From a virus: DNA of 43,819 nt. The notes below the pieces were generated by a model. It was not told the DNA's origin, made no database searches, and saw only the letters and a program-made list of their open reading frames with translations. The translations under genes and the position numbers were made by a program. Within the stretch, counting starts at the first letter, position 1. The number at the start of each line of letters is the position of its first letter. Below are positions 6,059-25,409 of this stretch, piece by piece. Location of the stretch: IMG/VR virus record IMGVR_UViG_3300046820_000486, positions 1 to 43,819 of that record; one strand, 5' to 3'.

Positions 6059-6427
6059 TTAAAAATCTACATCTGGGTTAAACTTTGTAATCTCTGGGTC
6101 TATCACTTCAACAGCAGACGCGGGTAACTCTACCTTCTCTCTACTGGTATATTGCTCGTTATATGATTTAATAACAATACAATCTAACAGAGTAGTTCCA
6201 TAGTCACCTACGGTGCCTGACGGTAACACAACAATCACCATCAAATAAACAGGAGTTGGGTCACCTGTGGGAAACCATTTTACAGTAGCATAATGATATT
6301 TATCTTGCATATCATAATACCATTGCTCTTGTGTTTCAATCCACGCAATGTACTCTGCTTCACCTTGTGCTTCTAAAAACGCTTGCTCTTGCAAGTACGC
6401 AGCATAATTTTCTTCTGAATTAAACAT
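6059..6427 (-). CDS. Hypothetical protein (122 aa)
   Basis: The N-terminus MFNSEENYAAYLQEQAFLEAQGEAEYIAWIETQ is a strongly helical, acidic, Tyr-rich segment, probably a coiled coil. The second half is beta-like (HYATVKWFPTGDPTPVYLMVIVVLPSGTVGDYG). Family unknown. It is the first gene of a two-gene leftward unit with the 254-aa gene. A hairpin at 6464-6491 separates it from the gene upstream. The leader before the ATG contains TTAACCAATTAAAACAACTAACT. Confidence 0.75.
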   Translation of the reverse strand: MFNSEENYAAYLQEQAFLEAQGEAEYIAWIETQEQWYYDMQDKYHYATVKWFPTGDPTPVYLMVIVVLPSGTVGDYGTTLLDCIVIKSYNEQYTSREKVELPASAVEVIDPEITKFNPDVDF

Positions 6428-6962: not shown

Positions 6963-7034
6963 TGTGTTGGTTATTAATTGATTTCTGTTTGTTTGCCCCT
7001 CTGCACTCAGTTGTAATAGATAGTTAGACCTCAT

Positions 7035-7981
7035 TTTGAACTATCAATTGGAATCCTGCAGTCTCCGTATGCCTACGGTGCTTTACTACAACTGCTCACC
7101 CTTGGGAAGTGAGTTATGGTGCATTAACAATGAGAAGACTGATTACCTTCTCTGTACCGTTTAGCAGGTTGAAGCTCTATTCTCCACACCTAGTCTGTGA
7201 CTATACAGTGGCTGGTTGTTAACAATGCCGCATCTGTGAATAGATTTTCGAATGAGCATTAACAAAGGTAGTTTCACTTCGCATTATATCTACCTTAAAC
7301 CCCGCTTCTAGAGTTAAGCAGTTTGTCTTCATGCTTAGGAATACGACGAATATCACGTCCTTTCTATTGGTACTCTCACAAGGTTGCAACCCTTAACATC
7401 TTTACCATATTCGTCACTGTCTAAAAGACTAACGCGGAAAGAACTATACTACCTGCAATTGGATGAGAGTAAAAAAACTACTAATACTCGTTACAAGTAT
7501 ATAGCAATAGGATGAATTCCCGTAGAATTTGATACAAACCATACCTATGTTAATATTAGGTTAATTAGCTCACCGTTGTGAGGGTTTACGGGAATTCAAA
7601 AAGAGAAGTCCCAACAGAGTATAGAAACCGAAACTATACACTATGTTTAATTAAAAACACTCTGCTGGGACTAATATGTTGATAATCAATCAGTTGAGTC
7701 GTGGATGATTACAGAAACGCGGGGAATCATATCTACTTCTACCTTCTGCTCTATATAAGCATTAAGAAGAGTAACACAATGAGTCTCTAATAGGACAGTA
7801 CGCTTAACTGTATGTATGAGATAGTAGGTAATCATAATAATGAGAGTAGTATTATTGGTTAACTATATGCTATACTCTAAACGTTGTTACTTGTGTGTGT
7901 TTTCAGTGGGTTGTCACAATGTAGAGAGTACCCATAGGGGAGGGCACTCTCACACACTGTAACATTCTCACTGTCAATCAC
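7035..7981 (-). ncRNA. Candidate large structured non-coding RNA (~0.95 kb), strand unproven
   Basis: No convincing gene in 947 bp, but inverted repeats follow one another across the whole interval. Stems: 7065-7069/7074-7078; 7095-7099/7109-7113; 7132-7137/7147-7152; 7191-7195/7199-7203 inside 7184-7187/7208-7211; 7265-7271/7290-7296; 7345-7353/7407-7415 enclosing 7380-7383/7391-7394; 7484-7488/7496-7500; 7513-7524/7587-7598 (12 bp) enclosing 7543-7547/7557-7561 and 7569-7573/7578-7582; 7607-7620/7659-7672; 7705-7710/7725-7730; 7795-7799/7807-7811; 7836-7841/7851-7856; and 7885-7890 plus 7893-7899 with 7951-7957 plus 7959-7964. In the 7607/7672 stem the only mismatch (7614 against 7665) becomes a G-U pair on the minus strand, and the 7345/7415 stem gains two G-U pairs there. 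Three other stems favour plus, so orientation rests on minus-strand neighbours. The size recalls ornate phage RNAs such as GOLLD or ROOL; I do not claim identity. Confidence 0.5.
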
Positions 7982-8470
7982 TTACAAATCGTCAACGTTG
8001 TCAGCGTTTGTAGTTTCTTCTACCTTTTCAGGTGTAGAATCACCTTCGGTCACAACAGTTTTACCTATTGCACCACCAACAGTTGCACTGTTTCTACGTG
8101 TAAACAAGTCACCAATGCTTTCATTAGCGATCTTTGCAGCGATAGCATTCTTCAAAGTGTCATCTTGTACACTCTTCATAATACTCTCTGCTTTCAACAT
8201 TGCTAATTGGTCGATTACCAACTTGTTATTTGGGGTGATATTGTATGTAACAACGTCACCAACCCAATTGTTTTCAAACAATAATGGGCACGTAATCTCT
8301 TTACCGTTGTACATAACGGGTTCGGAAGTCTCGCGATAGTTATCACCTTTAATCGCCTTTAATGCGTCAAGCTCTGTACTTGTAGCATCTACAACATAGT
8401 ACTTCCATACGATGTTTCCGGTTCCTTTCTTACGGTAGAACTCCTGACCTTTGATTTGAACTGCTTTCAT
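7982..8470 (-). CDS. Possible ssDNA-binding-type protein with acidic tail (162 aa)
   Basis: MKAVQIKGQEFYRKKGTGNIVWKYYVVDATSTELDALK gives strand, Tyr-rich strand, helix. An SEPVMYNGKEITCPLLF strand pair, a helical NKLVIDQLAMLKAESIMKSVQ segment and an extended Thr/Glu-rich tail ending NADNVDDL follow. The layout (beta core, helix, disordered acidic tail with a hydrophobic tip) resembles SSB-like phage replication proteins and matches the 8768-9244 protein, which ends SVDDL. Binding of ssDNA and recruitment of partners through the tail is a plausible inference, not shown. It lacks the fixed-distance 12-bp cassette element of its right-hand neighbours; the nearest degenerate copy is about 70 bp upstream. 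Confidence 0.7.
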   Translation of the reverse strand: MKAVQIKGQEFYRKKGTGNIVWKYYVVDATSTELDALKAIKGDNYRETSEPVMYNGKEITCPLLFENNWVGDVVTYNITPNNKLVIDQLAMLKAESIMKSVQDDTLKNAIAAKIANESIGDLFTRRNSATVGGAIGKTVVTEGDSTPEKVEETTNADNVDDL

Positions 8471-8767
8471 TTCGTTCAGTTTTTAGTTATTAAATTGTTT
8501 TACTTGTTACACTTGCAGTTAGTACCCTGCAAGCAGTCCATTAGGGAAAACCTATTTCCACACAAAAAACGAGTACCACGACAACCAAACACGCAACTCT
8601 AACTATCTAATTAGAAAGAGTAGTACTATTACACTGTTGCAACCTTTACACCGTATTAAGGTTTCAAGGTCGTCACCACGTGCACAAACAATTAGGGTTT
8701 ACCTATTTACAAACAAAAAACATAGAATCAAAATAAAAGTGTGCACCCCCTAAGGGGTGCTACACTA
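8471..8767. repeat. Non-coding interval with two copies of a 33-bp imperfect repeat
   Basis: No gene is seen. Two direct repeats of about 33 bp lie near 8539-8571 and 8690-8722. On the minus strand both read GTTTTTTGT, then AAATAGGT, then CCCTAAT with small differences. The CCCTAAT part is the core of the 12-bp cassette element found further right, so these may be regulatory sites or degenerate cassettes. A terminator at 8731-8765 closes the gene to the right. Confidence 0.6.
8731..8765 (-). terminator. Intrinsic terminator after the 8768-9244 gene
   Basis: Minus strand GCACCCC pairs with GGGGTGC, extended by GTGT/ACAC across a one-base bulge, then TTTTATTTT. It begins 2 bp after the TAA stop. 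Confidence 0.85.
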
Positions 8768-9244
8768 TTACAAATCATCCACACTCTTCTCCGTTTCTAC
8801 CGCAGGTTCGTTCAGCGCTTCTGCACTGTCTCCGCGACGCTCCTTCTCAATCATATCAAGCATGAGTTGCTTTGATTGTTCAAGGAATCCTTGATACGCA
8901 AATTGCGCAAATCCTGTTGCACCGATAGCGCTGTTCTCGCTTAACAACGATGTCAAGATTTCGAGATTGCATTTGGTGTACCAAGAGTGACGATTGGTAG
9001 TTGGGTTAGGTTTCATACTGCGCTTGATAATCGCAATGTCTCCTAATCTCTTTTCAGAGCGATAGATTGGTGTACCTTCGTCAATGACCGCCCAATCTTT
9101 TCCGTCTTCGTCAGTACCCAAATCGAGACGATATTGTTCGACTTGTTCTGCTGACATTCCGCTAATCTTGTAGTAGTAGCGATAACTTGTAGTGCCTTGT
9201 GCATCCCGCACAATGCGCTCATTCTTGAATTTTAATTTAAACAT
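8768..9244 (-). CDS. Possible ssDNA-binding-type protein, SVDDL tail (158 aa)
   Basis: The open frame continues to 9343 through a terminator and leader, so the ATG at 9244 (MFKLKFKNERIVRDAQG) is the true start; the 12-bp element ends 9 bp upstream. TTSYRYYYKISGMSAEQVEQYR is followed by DEGTPIYRSEKRLGDIAIIKRS, then helices (NLEILTSLLSE; FAQFAYQGFLEQSKQLMLDMIEKERR) and an acidic tail ending SVDDL. The order of elements parallels the 7982-8470 protein (Tyr-rich strand, Ser/Thr-led helix, GxPxY strand, acidic DDL tail), suggesting divergent paralogues. An ssDNA-binding role is a guess. Base composition is visibly more GC-rich than in the structural genes. Confidence 0.7.
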   Translation of the reverse strand: MFKLKFKNERIVRDAQGTTSYRYYYKISGMSAEQVEQYRLDLGTDEDGKDWAVIDEGTPIYRSEKRLGDIAIIKRSMKPNPTTNRHSWYTKCNLEILTSLLSENSAIGATGFAQFAYQGFLEQSKQLMLDMIEKERRGDSAEALNEPAVETEKSVDDL

Positions 9245-9306
9245 AGCACACTTATTAGGGTTTTTAATTATGAGTAGTAGCATAGAGACGGAGTTATCAC
9301 ACCCCC

Positions 9307-9337
9307 GAAAAAAGGGTAAACACCCCCGAAGGGGTGT
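9307..9337 (-). terminator. Hairpin terminator after the AT-hook gene
   Basis: Minus strand ACACCCC pairs with GGGGTGT around a TTC-type loop (9320-9337). TTACCC and a TTTTTT run follow. It begins 5 bp after the stop codon. Confidence 0.7.
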
Positions 9338-9342
9338 ATACA

Positions 9343-9618
9343 CTATTTGCGTGGTCTTCCGCGTTTAACCTGTTTTACCGCACGTTTCGGTTTCGCAGGT
9401 TGTAACTCGTTCAACGCACGTTGATATTCCGCAAGGATACCACGCATTGTAGATAGACCTTTTGCGTGTGACTCTAATGAGTAAGAGTCCGTTGATTCAC
9501 CTAATGCTTTACGAATGAAGTCTTGTTCTGATTGAGCAATCTTATTCGTATAATAGGTGATTTGTGCTGTGAGCGTCGCTACTCCCGTAGCAATCATCTC
9601 GTTAATGATGTTTTTCAT
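9343..9618 (-). CDS. Small DNA-binding protein with C-terminal AT-hook-like motif (91 aa)
   Basis: Residues 1-72 are helical (MKNIINEMIATGVATLTAQITYY; LSTMRGILAEYQRALNELQ), probably a dimerising coiled coil. The last about 17 residues are strongly basic and end KRGRPRK, the core of the AT-hook (RGRP) that inserts in the minor groove of AT-rich DNA. This suggests a small nucleoid-type or regulatory protein acting on the AT-rich phage or host genome. It is one of the single-gene cassettes (12-bp element 18 nt upstream, hairpin after the stop). The motif is short, so DNA binding is likely but unproven. Confidence 0.75.
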   Translation of the reverse strand: MKNIINEMIATGVATLTAQITYYTNKIAQSEQDFIRKALGESTDSYSLESHAKGLSTMRGILAEYQRALNELQPAKPKRAVKQVKRGRPRK

Positions 9619-9692
9619 TAGTGTATAATTTGAGTAATTAGGGTTTTTCCTTATTTTACTGGTGTTTCACCGATGGACAAATCGCACTTGAT

Positions 9693-9737
9693 AAAAAAAA
9701 CAAGACACCCAATTAAGGGTATCTTGCTTGTTTTTTT
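9693..9737 (-). terminator. Strong intrinsic terminator, possibly bidirectional
   Basis: 9701-9710 pairs with 9717-9726. The single C/A mismatch on plus is a G-U pair on minus. T tracts flank both sides: 9693-9700 read on minus and 9731-9737 read on plus. It ends the 9752-10057 gene. Confidence 0.85.
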
Positions 9738-9751
9738 AGACCTGATCCGCA

Positions 9752-10057
9752 TTACATGCTCCACGAATCATCACAAGGTCCGTTGCTCACAACGGTCTCC
9801 CCGGAGTTTCTTGCAATCGTTTGCGCTTCACGCAATTGCAGATACAGGAATTGATTAATAATGATCGCTTTGAAATCTTTCAAAGGATCGGTTGATTGAC
9901 CATTAGCGATAGGCACCAACTCGTCTAATAATTGAGACGCGCATTGCTGAACACCAATGGTTTTGAAATTAGAGTTGATTAACAACTCATTTAATAAAGC
10001 TACATCTATCGATACAGCTTCTCTACCCGCGCAGGATAAGATCGGTTTTGTTTGCAT
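9752..10057 (-). CDS. Hypothetical early cassette protein (101 aa)
   Basis: MQTKPILSCAGREAVSIDVALLNELLINSNFKTIG, then helical QQCASQLLDELVPIANG and DFKAIIINQFLYLQLREAQTIARNSGE. Unrecognised, soluble, no metal motif. The 12-bp element ends 17 nt before the ATG and TATACACT directly precedes it, which fixes this start. A strong terminator follows. Likely an early host-takeover or regulatory protein by position; no functional evidence. Confidence 0.75.
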   Translation of the reverse strand: MQTKPILSCAGREAVSIDVALLNELLINSNFKTIGVQQCASQLLDELVPIANGQSTDPLKDFKAIIINQFLYLQLREAQTIARNSGETVVSNGPCDDSWSM

Positions 10058-10100
10058 AGTGTATAATTAAATTCATTAGGGTTTTTAATAGTAGTAAAAG

Positions 10101-10117
10101 AGAGTGCATTAGCACTC
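10101..10117 (-). terminator. Hairpin overlapping a stop codon
   Basis: GAGTGC (10102-10107) pairs with GCACTC (10112-10117). The TAA stop at 10109-10111 lies in the loop. Minus-strand continuation is CTCTTTTAC, a weak U tract. Confidence 0.6.
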
Positions 10118-10303
10118 CCTATTACGTTTCATCAACAGTAATGTCAATGCCAGCGAGATTCCAAACAACGCGGAGTCTGTCGCGTCATGTAACACATCGT
10201 CGTACATTTCAGGTGATATCGGTATACCGAATAACATTTCCTGTTTCATGTTAATGTTCTTTAACAGTTCAGCACGCTCTGATGGTGATAAGATTGTTTC
10301 CAT
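10109..10303 (-). CDS. Small membrane-anchored cassette protein (64 aa)
   Basis: Starts at METILSPSERAELLKNINMKQEML. The frame could extend to 10384, but that would read through the 12-bp element, which ends 16 nt before this ATG. The C-terminal ALFGISLALTLLLMKRNREC is a short hydrophobic helix closed by basic residues, consistent with a tail anchor or a membrane-associated helix. The stop lies inside a hairpin. Function unknown; a small early membrane protein could act in exclusion of other phages (inference). Confidence 0.7.
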   Translation of the reverse strand: METILSPSERAELLKNINMKQEMLFGIPISPEMYDDVLHDATDSALFGISLALTLLLMKRNREC

Positions 10304-10336
10304 ATATGTAGTTATAGTGATTAGGGTTTTTCTAAT

Positions 10337-10364
10337 TAAAACAAAAAGCACCCCGAAGGGTGCC
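10337..10364 (-). terminator. Intrinsic terminator after the 10385-10600 gene
   Basis: Minus strand GCACCC pairs with GGGTGC around a TTCG-containing loop, followed by TTTTTGTTTT. A canonical, strong terminator. Confidence 0.85.
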
Positions 10365-10384
10365 TCTCGCACACATATGAACAA

Positions 10385-10600
10385 CTAATGTTTTGGATAA
10401 CGATAGCGTTCGTCAAATTCTGCGGTTATTACCGCTGCGATAAGCAGCGATATAAACAGACTAAAGAAGCAATACGCATAAGAATGCGTCATCTGATGGA
10501 TTGTGAATGGTGTTATGATACTGAGTACCAAGACACCGATTAGGTGTGTTCCCACGACACTCGCGAGGAATACACCAATGTTTTCTAATGTTCTTTTCAT
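10385..10600 (-). CDS. Two-helix small membrane protein (71 aa)
   Basis: MKRTLENIGVFLASVVGTHLIGVLVLSIITPF gives one membrane helix and SYAYCFFSLFISLLIAAVITAEF a second, with a short polar loop and a basic tail (DERYRYPKH). A hairpin-like inner-membrane protein of 71 residues. The 12-bp element ends 17 nt before the ATG, and a strong terminator lies 20 bp after the stop. The frame at 10461-10643 is a shadow. The size is holin-like, but its place among early-type leftward cassettes argues instead for an early membrane function such as superinfection exclusion. Unproven. Confidence 0.75.
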   Translation of the reverse strand: MKRTLENIGVFLASVVGTHLIGVLVLSIITPFTIHQMTHSYAYCFFSLFISLLIAAVITAEFDERYRYPKH

Positions 10601-10641
10601 GTTGTGTATTTGAATTAATTAGGGTTTTTCTTCTTAATAAC

Positions 10642-10670
10642 AATGAACCCCCTTAAAAAGGGAGTTCATC
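10642..10670 (-). terminator. Hairpin encoding the DELPF tail and spanning the stop
   Basis: TGAAC (10644-10648) pairs with GTTCA (10664-10668), extended by CCC/GGG. The final codons (D-E-L-P-F) and the TAA stop of the 10653 gene are inside the hairpin. Only a weak U-rich tail follows. Confidence 0.6.
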
Positions 10671-10844
10671 AATGGTATCGACGTCCGGATCATACGGTGA
10701 GTGCACCGTAGAACCGCAATCAGCGCAGACTTCAACGTCTGCGTATTCGACGTCAATAGTCTCAGGAGAATATCCTGTTAAGAAACCAACAACAACTGTT
10801 GTTGTTTCTGTGCACCCGCAGGTGCAAGAATGCATTTTATTCAT
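10653..10844 (-). CDS. Zinc-binding small protein with DELPF tail (63 aa)
   Basis: MNKMHSCTCGCTETTTVVV contains C-x-C-x-C and a second pair CADCGSTVHSP, together a likely zinc-ribbon. The C-terminus is acidic and ends DVDTIDELPF, close to the bacterial SSB tip (acidic then D-x-[IL]-P-F) that recruits replication and repair partners. However, these codons lie in a hairpin that also spans the stop, so RNA structure could equally have shaped the sequence. Cassette layout: 12-bp element 18 nt upstream. It could be a zinc adaptor binding host SSB partners. This is inference. Confidence 0.75.
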   Translation of the reverse strand: MNKMHSCTCGCTETTTVVVGFLTGYSPETIDVEYADVEVCADCGSTVHSPYDPDVDTIDELPF

Positions 10845-10894
10845 ATGTGTAGAATTTAAACTATTAGGGTTTTTATCTCTTAACCCCGAAGGGT

Positions 10895-10922
10895 GATGAT
10901 CCCCCTAGAAAGGGAGATCATC
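10895..10922 (-). terminator. Hairpin encoding the DDLPF tail and spanning the stop
   Basis: GATGATC (10895-10901) pairs with GATCATC (10916-10922). The codons for D-D-L-P-F and the TAG stop are within the stem-loop. A second short CCC/GGG hairpin follows before the next cassette element. Confidence 0.6.
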
Positions 10923-11135
10923 TTCTTCTGTGCGTTCAGATGGTGTATACACCACAGGGTTCACAGGGTTGCCGTAAAACTCTTTACATTCTGGATTTAA
11001 ACAGAATGTTTCGGTCTCGGTCTCGACGTCGAATGAATCCACTGATCCTCCGTCATCGTAGCATGGTACCATACGTGTGCTTTCGAACACATCTAAAAAG
11101 TTACCACAGCACTCGCATTTTTGTTCTTGTTGCAT
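10905..11135 (-). CDS. Zinc-ribbon protein with DDLPF tail (76 aa)
   Basis: The open frame reaches 11237, but MQQEQKCECCGNFLDVFEST at 11135 is the correct start because the 12-bp element ends 16 nt before it. C-x-C-C and a later CLNPECKEF give a four-Cys zinc-ribbon. An acidic tail ends RTEEDDLPF, essentially the bacterial SSB C-terminal tip. With the 10653-10844 protein it forms a pair of zinc-ribbon plus SSB-tip proteins. It is the first gene of the leftward cassette array, bordering the divergent control region. Function unknown; binding to SSB-interacting host proteins is a testable idea. Confidence 0.75.
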   Translation of the reverse strand: MQQEQKCECCGNFLDVFESTRMVPCYDDGGSVDSFDVETETETFCLNPECKEFYGNPVNPVVYTPSERTEEDDLPF

Positions 11136-11163
11136 ATGTGTTATTAAGATCATTAGGGTTTTT

Positions 11164-11458
11164 CGAGGGGGGTACCCCCGAGTCGCGCAAGTGGTGGGGA
11201 TCGTTTCATATACCACCCCACACATTCTCTCCTCCATTACGTAATAACCCCCGGGGTACGCGTGCTACCAGATGTACCCGGGGTAACTTGTCATATAAGT
11301 ACCAAAATACCATTATAATGGGTGGTATAATACCAGTTGGTATAAATTGATGTACCCGTTGAGGTATGATTGTGTATGTTATAGTAGACATTATACCCCG
11401 AAAGGTATGTTAATGCATAGTATATCATACAGTATATTGATTATCCAAATTATGCTTT
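11164..11458. promoter_or_regulatory. Divergent control region rich in dyads
   Basis: No credible gene. Palindromes: ATTACGTAAT (11236-11245), ACCCCCGGGGT (11247-11257), TACCCGGGGTA (11275-11285), CCATTATAATGG (11310-11321), GGTATAATACC (11324-11334), and hairpin ATACC/GGTAT (11393-11397/11404-11408). GGTAT/ATACC half-sites recur across about 90 bp. The region separates leftward early-type cassettes from the rightward structural genes. It may hold operators, an origin or a switch; the sequence does not say which. Confidence 0.6.
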
Positions 11459-11499
11459 TATATTTGTAGATGTCTTCGTACTTTTGTATATTATAGTAT
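11459..11499 (+). promoter_or_regulatory. Rightward promoter with TAnnTTTG boxes
   Basis: TATATTTG (11459-11466) and TACTTTTG (11479-11486) both match the Bacteroidota -7 box. The stretch TTTTGTATATTATAGTAT (11482-11499) recurs exactly at 21826-21843, each time ending at a start codon. Confidence 0.6.
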
Positions 11500-11979: not shown

Positions 11980-14766
11980 ATGGCTTATTCAACAATGAGA
12001 TCCGCGATACCTCTAGGGAGTGTTAGCGGAGGTACGTTTACCGCAAAATTACAAAATGCTTGTACAAGTACACAGTATCCAGAAGGTACTGTATTTGACT
12101 GTAGCGGTTTTACATCAGTTAGTGTTCCTTCACAATTCATTACAGGAACAATCACAATCACTCGTCCTGGGATTACTTTGTTATTCAGCGAAGGTGATTT
12201 TATATGGAACCCAACTGGGGGTACAGCTCTAGATGCAAACATGTTTGAGATTATTGCACCCAATGTAACAATTATCGGTGTAAGTCGTTCTGCAAAAGAT
12301 AGCGTCTCTACAAACGGAGCTACTCGTTTTGTGATGAATTCACCTAGCACAGGATACCATGTTTACACAAGACCTGATCTAACAACATTTGCATCGGCAG
12401 ATTCTCTTACAATCATGAATTGTGATTTTGTAGGTGTTAAGTCCATATATACTTCTTCAGGTGGTAATGTTAACTATAGCACAACTGGTGCTGGTGGTAT
12501 CCTCCTTACTGAAGGAAACGTAAATCAACCAAACTCTAACTTGAACAATGTTATGATCAGTGAGGTTTTGGTAAGTGGTGCTAAACAACATGGTGTTATG
12601 ATCTATGGTGGTATGGCATCTAAACTTCAAAACGTTCGTGTAAGAAACGCAGCTGGTCATGGATTCTATATTGCTGGTAGCACTACTAGTACTACTTTGG
12701 ATGCTTGTTATGCATCTGGTAACTACCTAGCAGGTTTCTGTATTAATAATACTACATATTCTACACTTACAAGTTGTGCATCTGATTCTAATGGTCTAGG
12801 TTACTGGATGAGAAATGCAAATTCTGTTACTTTAAACAGTTGTGGTGCAGAAGCTTGTGAAGTAAGATCTAGTATCCCTAATAACTTGGGTATCGCTGTA
12901 AAAAATTCAGTAGGAACTGTTCTTATTAATGATATTGGTTCTGATAATGTAAACTTTATCAAAGGTACAAGTTTCTTGTTTACCGGTGGTGACAATATTA
13001 CTGGTACATCTTGTTATTCTAAAGATCCTGGTAATCGTGCTGGTTTATCAACTTTTCTTAGTAAGTATACAGCTCATATTCATGGAGTAGACGGTACTAC
13101 AAAAGTTAACATGGATAACTTCAAAGCGGCTGGTACCTCAACTACTAAGTACTTATATCGTTTAGAAGATGTAAATAATTTCCATATTGATGATTTAGTA
13201 ACTCAGTATGATCCTACAAATCCAACAGAATCACCTGATGGATCAATGACTTTCGTAAATCAAATTTTAGATCAAGGTGCTAATAATATCTTTGGAGATT
13301 TTGCTACTAGTACTAGTTGGTTAGGTCGTAGAGTAGATATTGCAAATTCCGAAGATAATCTTAGAGTTAATCAATTGTATGTTCCTGGTAGATTGAGTAT
13401 TCCAGTTGAACCAGCACATCCTGCAAATCCAGAAGCTGGTAGTATCTACTTTAATAATACATTGAACAAGTTGTTTATGTTTAGTGGATCTGCTTGGTTT
13501 GATACATGTTGTGCTACTGCTCCTACTCCTGCTCCTGAGTGTGTATTCCCTAATGGTGGTGCTACTATACTAACAGAAATGGATTTTAGAGCTTCTTATT
13601 TTTATGCTATAGGTACAAAAACTTATTTTGTAAGTAATGCACTAGGTTATAACTTAACAAGTAATCCAGAAGCTCCTGTACTTATGGTATTTGACTCTAG
13701 TACTGAAGTTTTAACACCGCTTCTAACAAGAACTGATGTGTTTGGAATTCAAAGTCTTGTTCAATTTATACCTTCAACCATAGGTTATAGTTCCGTAACA
13801 AATTCGCTTTATATAGGTTTCAGTTGGGGTAATAGTAATATTGGTGATACTTTTAGTTTAGCTGATACTTATAGTAAATTAATAAAGTATAACTTAAATA
13901 CAGCTACTATAGATGCTACTGTGACTGAGTATATTGGTTTTGATGTTAACGACGCTACTCCGGAAAAGATTTTTGGAACAGGTCAGCTAAGATATGTTGT
14001 TCAAGGTAGTGCCCTAAAACAAATTAATTTTGGTTATTATGGTGAAAACGTAAGTACTGAAAAACCACTTGTTATAATTAATAGAGATTTGAACACATTA
14101 GATATTACTTCACAGGTAACAGGTGATGATGTTCGGGGTGGTTATCAAGGTCAAAGTGGTCCGTTTATTAATAATAATATGATCAATAATCAAATATTAA
14201 TAACAGATGATAGAATATTAACTAATACGTCTCTTCTAGAGGGGGATACAGATTTAACGTTTGGTGTTTTAGACCTTAGTGATGGTTTGATGAGTTATGT
14301 TACATATGATACATTAGCATCTCCATTTCCCGATAATGTTAATTATGTAAGACAAACCTATTCTAAATCTCAAACCGATCCTTCTATTTTTTTATTATCA
14401 GATAGTATATCAGGAAAGATTTATGAAATCGATCTTAATACTCTTACTGTAAATGATGAATGGTCAATAGGACTACCTGCCTATGGTGTATATGATTATA
14501 TAGTAAATTCAGTACGTTTTTTGGTATTTACAGCACCTGTTTATAATACTCAAACTGGGTTATATGAATGGAAACTTACCACATTTAATACATCAAATAG
14601 TGAGTTAACATTCTCTCCGTATATAATAGCATATACATCGAATATAAACGCATGGTATTACTCAGCAACTTTGCAAAATGGAATGGTGTTCGATATAGAA
14701 AATAATAATATGTATACTGCATCTTCAATGAGAATTCAAAAATTCTGTGCTCCATACGCTGTATAA
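11980..14766 (+). CDS. Tail fibre/tailspike-like protein, beta-helix plus C-terminal domain (928 aa)
   Basis: Residues about 15-450 consist of short beta-strand turns with Asn/Ser/Thr ladders (NNVMISEVLVSGAKQHGVMIYGG, VRVRNAAGHGFYIAG, LDACYASGNYLAGFC), typical of a right-handed parallel beta-helix as in pectate lyases and tailspikes. A linker with EAGSIYFNNTLNKLFMFSGSAW (a frequent Bacteroidota phage fibre motif) and a CC element follow. The last about 390 residues form a beta-rich domain, perhaps a propeller, probably for receptor recognition. It may bind or degrade surface polysaccharide. No catalytic residues can be assigned. 27 bp after the previous gene, same transcript. Confidence 0.8.
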   Translation: MAYSTMRSAIPLGSVSGGTFTAKLQNACTSTQYPEGTVFDCSGFTSVSVPSQFITGTITITRPGITLLFSEGDFIWNPTGGTALDANMFEIIAPNVTIIGVSRSAKDSVSTNGATRFVMNSPSTGYHVYTRPDLTTFASADSLTIMNCDFVGVKSIYTSSGGNVNYSTTGAGGILLTEGNVNQPNSNLNNVMISEVLVSGAKQHGVMIYGGMASKLQNVRVRNAAGHGFYIAGSTTSTTLDACYASGNYLAGFCINNTTYSTLTSCASDSNGLGYWMRNANSVTLNSCGAEACEVRSSIPNNLGIAVKNSVGTVLINDIGSDNVNFIKGTSFLFTGGDNITGTSCYSKDPGNRAGLSTFLSKYTAHIHGVDGTTKVNMDNFKAAGTSTTKYLYRLEDVNNFHIDDLVTQYDPTNPTESPDGSMTFVNQILDQGANNIFGDFATSTSWLGRRVDIANSEDNLRVNQLYVPGRLSIPVEPAHPANPEAGSIYFNNTLNKLFMFSGSAWFDTCCATAPTPAPECVFPNGGATILTEMDFRASYFYAIGTKTYFVSNALGYNLTSNPEAPVLMVFDSSTEVLTPLLTRTDVFGIQSLVQFIPSTIGYSSVTNSLYIGFSWGNSNIGDTFSLADTYSKLIKYNLNTATIDATVTEYIGFDVNDATPEKIFGTGQLRYVVQGSALKQINFGYYGENVSTEKPLVIINRDLNTLDITSQVTGDDVRGGYQGQSGPFINNNMINNQILITDDRILTNTSLLEGDTDLTFGVLDLSDGLMSYVTYDTLASPFPDNVNYVRQTYSKSQTDPSIFLLSDSISGKIYEIDLNTLTVNDEWSIGLPAYGVYDYIVNSVRFLVFTAPVYNTQTGLYEWKLTTFNTSNSELTFSPYIIAYTSNINAWYYSATLQNGMVFDIENNNMYTASSMRIQKFCAPYAV

Positions 14767-24790: not shown

Positions 24791-25409
24791 TGAGAATATA
24801 GATCTTTTTAAGTGTTATGTAAGAGCATCTCACTTTACAAAGAAAGAAGAAGATAATGATACTTATCACAGAGCTTATGCATTTGCAGTACAATCATTAG
24901 CAGGAAAGATACTTACTTTTCATGTAATGACAGATTATGGTATGCTTAGATCAAGAGTTCCTATCTCTGAAATATTTATGGAGATACCAACAAGCGACAT
25001 ACCTTTTCATTTTAAGCAGTTGTGGGATTGCTTCTCTGAGAATGTTACTGTTACTACTTATGACTATCTATATGAAAAAAGATGTCAAGTAGTTTTAAAA
25101 GATGGTACTAAGATATGGGCGACCTATCTTATGACTGTAGATTGGTATAGGAATGCATATTCTGATGAACCTTCCGATTATAAGTGTGGACATATTCTAA
25201 TAGCAGATGATGGTTATCTACTATGTCAACCTAATAATAGAATATTCTGGAGAGATTCTAACTGGATTACTAAACCTTTTCCTGTAGAACCGTCTACATT
25301 TAAAGTAGATGAGCATATAGAATCTGTTGAAGCTCAGTCGGATAAATGGGTATCAGAAGATTCTAGTAGTTACTACTACGAAATAAAAGAAACAAAAAAT
25401 GACGATTAA
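24777..25409 (+). CDS. Hypothetical protein (210 aa)
   Basis: Unrecognised. Aromatic-rich and mixed: FKCYVRASHFTKKEEDNDTYHRAYAFAVQSLAGKILTFHVMT, then MLRSRVPISEIFMEIP, a TTYDYLYEKRCQVVLKDGTKIWATYLMTVDWY beta stretch and an acidic end. It overlaps both neighbours (14 bp with the nuclease, 11 bp with the next gene), so it is a fixed member of the packaging operon. The beta part around KDGTKIWATYLMTVDWY is the best conserved-looking segment. No function can be given. Confidence 0.7.
   Translation: MPILNENIDLFKCYVRASHFTKKEEDNDTYHRAYAFAVQSLAGKILTFHVMTDYGMLRSRVPISEIFMEIPTSDIPFHFKQLWDCFSENVTVTTYDYLYEKRCQVVLKDGTKIWATYLMTVDWYRNAYSDEPSDYKCGHILIADDGYLLCQPNNRIFWRDSNWITKPFPVEPSTFKVDEHIESVEAQSDKWVSEDSSSYYYEIKETKNDD

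Follow-up and report, generated by a model that had tools for sequence, protein, structure and literature searches.

Which molecule reads a short sequence that a crAss-like phage repeats unchanged in front of one small gene after another, and what is such an arrangement for? The locus lies in a 43.8-kb fragment (IMG/VR record IMGVR_UViG_3300046820_000486, positions 1 to 43,819), the whole of which is called the window below. The crAss-like membership of the window is established by its capsid protein (Pfam PF23898 Crass_capsid, E 3e-31), portal (PHROGs phrog_6547, E 1e-89) and TerL (phrog_6681, E 4e-59). The nearest isolate by portal, Leptolyngbya phage Lbo-JY46, is just 33% identical, which places the phage on a distant branch with few cultured members. 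The array region as DNA gave no match among phage records, its proteins gave nothing significant in Pfam or PHROGs, and an Rfam search yielded nothing above threshold. The relatives used for comparison were recruited via the phosphatase gene beside the array and later via the conserved array gene at 9752-10057.

The first-pass annotation had claimed seven exact copies of a 12-bp sequence, each before a small leftward gene, with a gap to the ATG of 16–18 nt for six genes and 9 nt for the seventh. This held entirely. When both strands of the window were searched, AAAAACCCTAAT was found seven times, always on the minus strand, between 9254 and 11163, each copy standing 5' of one small gene; there are no further exact copies outside the array on either strand. 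By ascending coordinate, the gaps to the ATG are 9, 18, 17, 16, 17, 18 and 16 nt. The extent of the array needs to be amended, as two degenerate copies follow the exact ones. The elements, with their predicted transcription starts, are:

11152..11163, minus strand: putative promoter element, copy 1 (AAAAACCCTAAT); predicted start A at 11145
10863..10874, minus strand: putative promoter element, copy 2 (AAAAACCCTAAT); predicted start A at 10856
10618..10629, minus strand: putative promoter element, copy 3 (AAAAACCCTAAT); predicted start A at 10611
10320..10331, minus strand: putative promoter element, copy 4 (AAAAACCCTAAT); predicted start A at 10313
10075..10086, minus strand: putative promoter element, copy 5 (AAAAACCCTAAT); predicted start A at 10068
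9637..9648, minus strand: putative promoter element, copy 6 (AAAAACCCTAAT); predicted start A at 9630
9254..9265, minus strand: putative promoter element, copy 7 (AAAAACCCTAAT); short-gap copy, 9 nt to the ATG, without A at +7
8691..8702, minus strand: degenerate copy GTAAACCCTAAT (within AAATAGGTAAACCCTAAT), 5' of about 130 nt of non-coding DNA
8540..8551, minus strand: degenerate copy GTTTTCCCTAAT (within AAATAGGTTTTCCCTAAT), 5' of the gene at 7982-8470; L169 has a similar copy

All seven exact copies lie wholly in non-coding DNA, which makes up 7.8% of the window; the probability of this by chance is about 2e-8. In 40 order-1 Markov resamplings the commonest 12-mer occurred 2–3 times, against the seven occurrences observed. 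A control with the reversed sequence carried no information, since reversal preserves repeats. The A at +7 is missing in the short-gap copy 7 and in both degenerate copies, and the short-gap exception recurs at the orthologous gene of a close relative, G025, with a gap of 8 nt.

The genes behind the elements are small, and folding predicts that almost every one of them has a hairpin at its stop or behind it, so that the claim of a hairpin or terminator ending each gene held very nearly as made:

10905..11135, minus strand: array gene 1, encoding 76 aa with Cys pairs and EEDDLPF at the C-terminus; hairpin loop holding the stop codon
10653..10844, minus strand: array gene 2, encoding 63 aa with Cys pairs and IDELPF at the C-terminus; hairpin loop holding the stop codon
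10385..10600, minus strand: array gene 3, encoding 71 aa, by inspection probably a membrane protein; terminator 10341-10370
10109..10303, minus strand: array gene 4, encoding 64 aa; hairpin loop holding the stop codon
9752..10057, minus strand: array gene 5, encoding 101 aa of the conserved family PILSCAGREAVSID; terminator 9698-9729
9343..9618, minus strand: array gene 6, encoding 91 aa, with a homologue in G014; hairpin 3' of the stop
8768..9244, minus strand: array gene 7, encoding 158 aa, with homologues in G006, G012 and G014; terminator 8743-8760
7982..8470, minus strand: gene following the array, encoding 162 aa and kept in several lineages; second degenerate element upstream, long leader
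11164..11499, no strand: divergent intergenic region separating the leftward, putatively early array from the rightward structural genes, whose start the array adjoins

Eight terminator-like hairpins were found in the array where 1.7 were expected, and in six lineages taken together folding puts the stop codon within a hairpin loop for 26 of 55 array genes. A promoter, a short leader, a small gene and a terminator would thus make up a unit of roughly 200–500 bp; the transcriptional part of this description is inferred.

Several observations on the same region stand apart from the question of the element. Seven of the 55 array proteins end in DDLPF or DELPF; they are found at the heads of arrays (window 10653-10844 and 10905-11135; G025, G026, G012 and G014), and the codons of these ends double as terminator stem. 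Such ends resemble the acidic tip at the C-terminus of bacterial single-strand-binding protein, and it is possible that these proteins mimic the host SSB. The approximately 130 nt after the degenerate copy at 8691-8702 contain hairpins and a T-run, and L169 is similar; the stretch between the two degenerate elements (window 8555-8690, L169 7360-7530) is conserved, non-coding and ends in a T-run (GGTACTCGTTTTTT), and it probably represents a small RNA. A conserved sequence of about 30 bp, ACTGGTGTTTCACCGATGGACAAATCGCACTT, lies at 9657-9689 of the window with two small hairpins and no Rfam match. It recurs in L169 (about 6350-6395), G009 (59321), G012 (14439), G020 (87455) and G024 (95228); each genome has a single copy, inside or close to the early region and in either orientation. 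The sequence might be an origin or a structured RNA. Finally, about 700 bp of the window (7000-7680) contain no convincing gene and are partly kept at about 93% in L001.

Comparison with the relatives shows that conservation extends beyond the 12 bp. In six lineages 57 of 61 copies are followed by exactly 6 nt, variable in sequence, and then by AA at +7/+8; the window obeys this rule in 6 of 7 copies and G005/G011 in 8 of 10. When the same sequences were aligned on the ATG, the best AA column reached at most 23 of 56, and the distance from element to ATG ranges from 8 to 36 nt across lineages, most copies lying 15–20 nt away. The claim of a fixed geometry is thus only partly upheld, since the distance that is exact across lineages is the one to the AA and not to the ATG. 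Several copies (G006 8740, G012 13217, G014 25032 and G026 90254) are not followed by a start codon at all. Three of the lineages contain an ORF-less copy (G006 8641-8740, G012 13217-13310, G014 25032-25128) after which a stem of about 80 nt extends up to the next element, beginning exactly at +7 in G012 and G014 and at +6 in G006; these stems are more stable than their shuffled versions (fold z -3.8, -2.9 and -2.8 for the set of G012, G014 and G006). A stem that begins at the predicted first base argues independently for a start at +7, and we infer that these copies, one per lineage, give rise to hairpin transcripts.

The relatives carry 12-bp elements of their own at the same place. These are TAACACCTTAAT in G026, AAAGTCCTTAAT in G006, AAACTCCTTACT in G014 and AAACTCTTTACT in G012, together with ATACAACATATC; in G005/G011 the element reads ATACAAC(A/T)TATC and is identical between the pair at 11 of 12 positions. 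Only G025 shares the element of the window, in nine exact copies and two variants. Exact copies of each element are confined to the array wherever this was counted (7/7 in the window, 13/13 in G006, within 4.7 kb of 113.8 kb, and 9/9 in G014). The gene content of the array varies among close relatives, and orthologous array genes sit behind different elements in different lineages; the set is therefore homogenised inside each genome and differs from one genome to the next. A scan of IMG/VR for the element followed by N6, AA and an ATG returned 101 stretches, among which only G025 has an array, the others being isolated matches such as chance predicts. More distantly, G021 has the element TATAACCTATTA, while G004, G008, G009, G024 and G020 have TTACTATCA(C/T)C-like elements, and in this TTACTATC group the N6-AA rule is not clearly obeyed. 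The same detector found no comparable array in the isolates phi14:2, crAss001 (first 100 kb) and Lbo-JY46, nor in the part of phi17:2 that was searched.

Some candidate repeats of the distant relatives were discarded. The AAACTAAATAACTATG repeats of G008 and the GAAACTTACGGAGGT repeats of G024 look like the starts of paralogous genes. The G001 element TAATACGACT resembles the T7 promoter, but it has few copies and fits the clade pattern CTAAT-N6-TAA. Two copies of CTAACTAATACGACTT at G001 58293-58397 contain TAATACGACT, the first ten bases of the T7 promoter, a likeness that is probably coincidental.

Which polymerase could use such sites? The expression of crAss-like early genes has been attributed to a virion RNA polymerase, as in phi14:2, and a homologue of the phi14:2 enzyme is reported in the crAss001 virion (PMC8375218). 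The search for a phage RNA polymerase suggested by the first-pass annotation was negative in the 43.8-kb window itself and positive in its relatives: twelve records of the clade (G001, G002, G005, G006, G009, G011, G014, G020, G021, G024, G025 and G026) contain a giant ORF of 2863–4821 codons with the crAss RNAP motif DFDID, which is also present in the phi14:2 enzyme. The fragment of this protein from G025 had as its sole match PDB 6VR4, the phi14:2 RNAP gp66, with E 9e-24. No Sigma70 domain was found in the eight records searched; PF00940, the profile of T7-like single-subunit RNAPs, gave no match in eight records, but none in the control genomes either.

The most probable explanation, in our opinion, is that the AAAAACCCTAAT copies are early promoters and that they are most likely read by the injected virion polymerase; promoter activity, start point, timing and the identity of the polymerase are all inferred. 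According to this model, the 12-bp copy would be the recognition core of a promoter of the form AAAAACCCTAAT-N6-AA, with the start at the A 7 nt past the core, and the reader would be the phage's own single-chain RNA polymerase, packaged in the virion and injected with the DNA. The predicted leaders are about 10–12 nt long in the window, or about 3 nt in the case of the short-gap gene. Every promoter would serve a single small gene, and RNA synthesis would end at the hairpin that often overlaps the stop codon. With one gene per promoter and a hairpin stop, the region would therefore constitute a row of self-contained promoter-gene-terminator cassettes, which may be transcribed in parallel at the onset of infection.

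This geometry is the same as in the early vRNAP promoters of phage AR9, which consist of a 13-bp core in the arrangement AAATATATATTAT-(6N)-G(+1); in phiKZ and phiR1-37 the start also lies 6 nt past the element (PMC5312081). In common with AR9 and phiKZ, the array has a highly conserved core of 12–13 bp, 6 nt to the start (here predicted) and many copies before early genes. The core is nearly invariant and its exact copies are found only in the array, as befits promoters that precede many early genes and are missing from late ones, the earliness of the genes being inferred; the agreement on the start rests on the AA at +7/+8 and exists at the sequence level only, as no start has been mapped. 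For AR9, too, over-representation of the motif came first and confirmation by dRNA-seq later (PMC5312081). The base composition, however, is different. AAAAACCCTAAT contains CCC and the other core lineages have 3–4 G/C, whereas AR9 has none, and because the core is not purely A+T we regard the system as working like the phiKZ type and not as a member of it. Further differences are the predicted start at A(A), the candidate polymerase, which is of the single-chain crAss type, and the tight clustering of one-gene cassettes. The 6VR4 homologue with DFDID in the relatives and the position of the array beside divergent late genes are in line with the phi14:2 vRNAP system; phi14:2 and crAss001 themselves show no comparable array with the detector used here. 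In P23-45 a conserved motif upstream of the pre-early genes has been assigned to a two-barrel virion RNAP fused to the tail tape, and relatives without that RNAP also lack the motif (PMC10770324), but both the phage group and the RNAP are different there. N4-type vRNAP promoters are short inverted-repeat hairpins with a 3-nt loop, and the 12-mer does not conform to this type, as no inverted repeat is seen in it by inspection and the N6 varies.

The strongest rival is that the host RNA polymerase uses these sites with an alternative sigma factor of the host or with a phage activator bound to the 12-bp element. The same layout would be expected in this case, since a DNA-binding activator could equally produce a conserved core and a fixed spacing to the start. 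We nevertheless consider it unlikely. Sigma-70-type sites are no more frequent in the array than expected (6 found, 7.9 expected), no Sigma70 domain was found in the eight records searched, and the elements differ between phages whose capsid proteins are 95% identical, while a virion RNAP homologue is available. The Bacteroidota sigma signal TAnnTTTG (near -7) is also missing, being absent between 7270 and 11459, so that the earlier claim of its absence held for the array; across the window, however, the motif is at chance frequency (60 against 55.7 expected) and its absence from the array therefore says little.

A role of the element in the mRNA, recruiting ribosomes or a phage translation regulator, was the other possibility raised by the first-pass annotation, and the Start-Associated Sequences (SAS) of cluster K mycobacteriophages, for which such a function was proposed, are a parallel. 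The SAS is a 13-bp repeat without symmetry that precedes many non-structural genes, almost always in the same orientation; it contains AGGAG, lies 3–7 bp away from the start codon and has no second fixed feature (PMC3203893). In favour of this reading, most copies are 15–20 nt from an ATG and the phage has scarcely any Shine-Dalgarno sequences (an AGGA-like site precedes just 3 of 58 window genes). It is a poor fit because some copies have no start codon, standing before hairpins instead, and because the distance to the ATG varies, the exact spacing being to the AA; moreover, the element does not occur before other genes of the genome, there is no AGGAG in it, the gaps of 9 and 16–18 nt do not match those of the SAS, and its sequence shifts between lineages. 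We therefore hold this reading to be very unlikely. Equally improbable are operators for a phage regulator acting on distant promoters, comparable to the stoperators of cluster A mycobacteriophages named in PMC3203893. Cluster A stoperators are asymmetric 13-bp sites, but regulation at a distance does not account for the fixed N6-AA, the placement before every gene or the stems that begin at +7, and an immunity repressor is not expected in crAss-like phages, which are said to be unable to form lysogens (PMC8375218). Finally, the copies might serve mainly as recombination targets for the exchange of small gene cassettes, with no direct role in expression. The differences in array gene content among close relatives speak for this, but the AA at +7 and the change of element at orthologous genes would remain unexplained, and we regard it as extremely unlikely.

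Promoters of a phage or virion RNA polymerase are thus the best supported of the alternatives proposed earlier, though no starts have been mapped and transcription is inferred. The promoter reading, which we consider probable, rests on the vRNAP-type geometry, the lineage-specific cores, the non-coding hairpin copies, the lack of Shine-Dalgarno sequences, the lack of a sigma signal, the lack of a phage sigma factor in the records searched and the RNAP homologue in the relatives. Against the assignment to the virion polymerase it must be said that there are no transcript data, that the RNAP gene lies outside the window, that the element is not purely A+T, and that the detector used here shows no such array in phi14:2 and crAss001, in which the crAss vRNAP was studied.

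If the virion polymerase reads the element, do the two change together? The window, G025 and G026 are 94–98% identical in portal, TerL and MCP (94–96% for G025 against G026), and the window and G025 share their element while that of G026 differs; RNAP identity between G025 and G026 is 43%. The RNAPs of G005 and G011, by comparison, are 93% identical and the elements nearly the same, and G009 and G024 share a core with RNAPs 64% identical. A Mantel-type test of RNAP against element in 11 genomes gave rho 0.39 (p 0.009), which is confounded with the overall phylogeny. The divergence between G025 and G026 is uneven: most head and packaging genes are about 90–97% identical, but identity falls to about 36–63% in the RNAP, the remaining giant ejected proteins and several proteins of the tail. 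Since all genes partly track the phylogeny and the whole ejected and tail set of this pair has diverged, the correlation is consistent with co-evolution and does not prove it. A G027 contig, whose RNAP is 98% identical to that of G026, does not include the array region. A bolder reading is that the vRNAP and its set of early promoters rapidly switch specificity together as a private code between competing phages, the core-N6-A geometry having arisen separately in the single-chain crAss RNAP and in the multisubunit vRNAPs of the phiKZ-like phages; we put this forward tentatively, as the evidence falls a little short of favouring it.

No promoter motif for a crAss vRNAP was found in the literature searched, but an earlier description in the phi14:2 enzyme paper (PMC12127119) is not excluded. 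What is probably new here is the occurrence in crAss-like phages of vRNAP-type early promoters, their organisation in single-gene cassettes and their lineage-specific cores, transcription being inferred throughout. The array offers a concrete consensus and a predicted start for the crAss vRNAP, an enzyme of solved structure, and the diverged polymerase-promoter pairs of close phages make both the recognition and its change of specificity directly testable. It also represents a compact design for early genes, in which a putative promoter, a small gene and a terminator overlapping the stop codon would follow one another in a single short unit.
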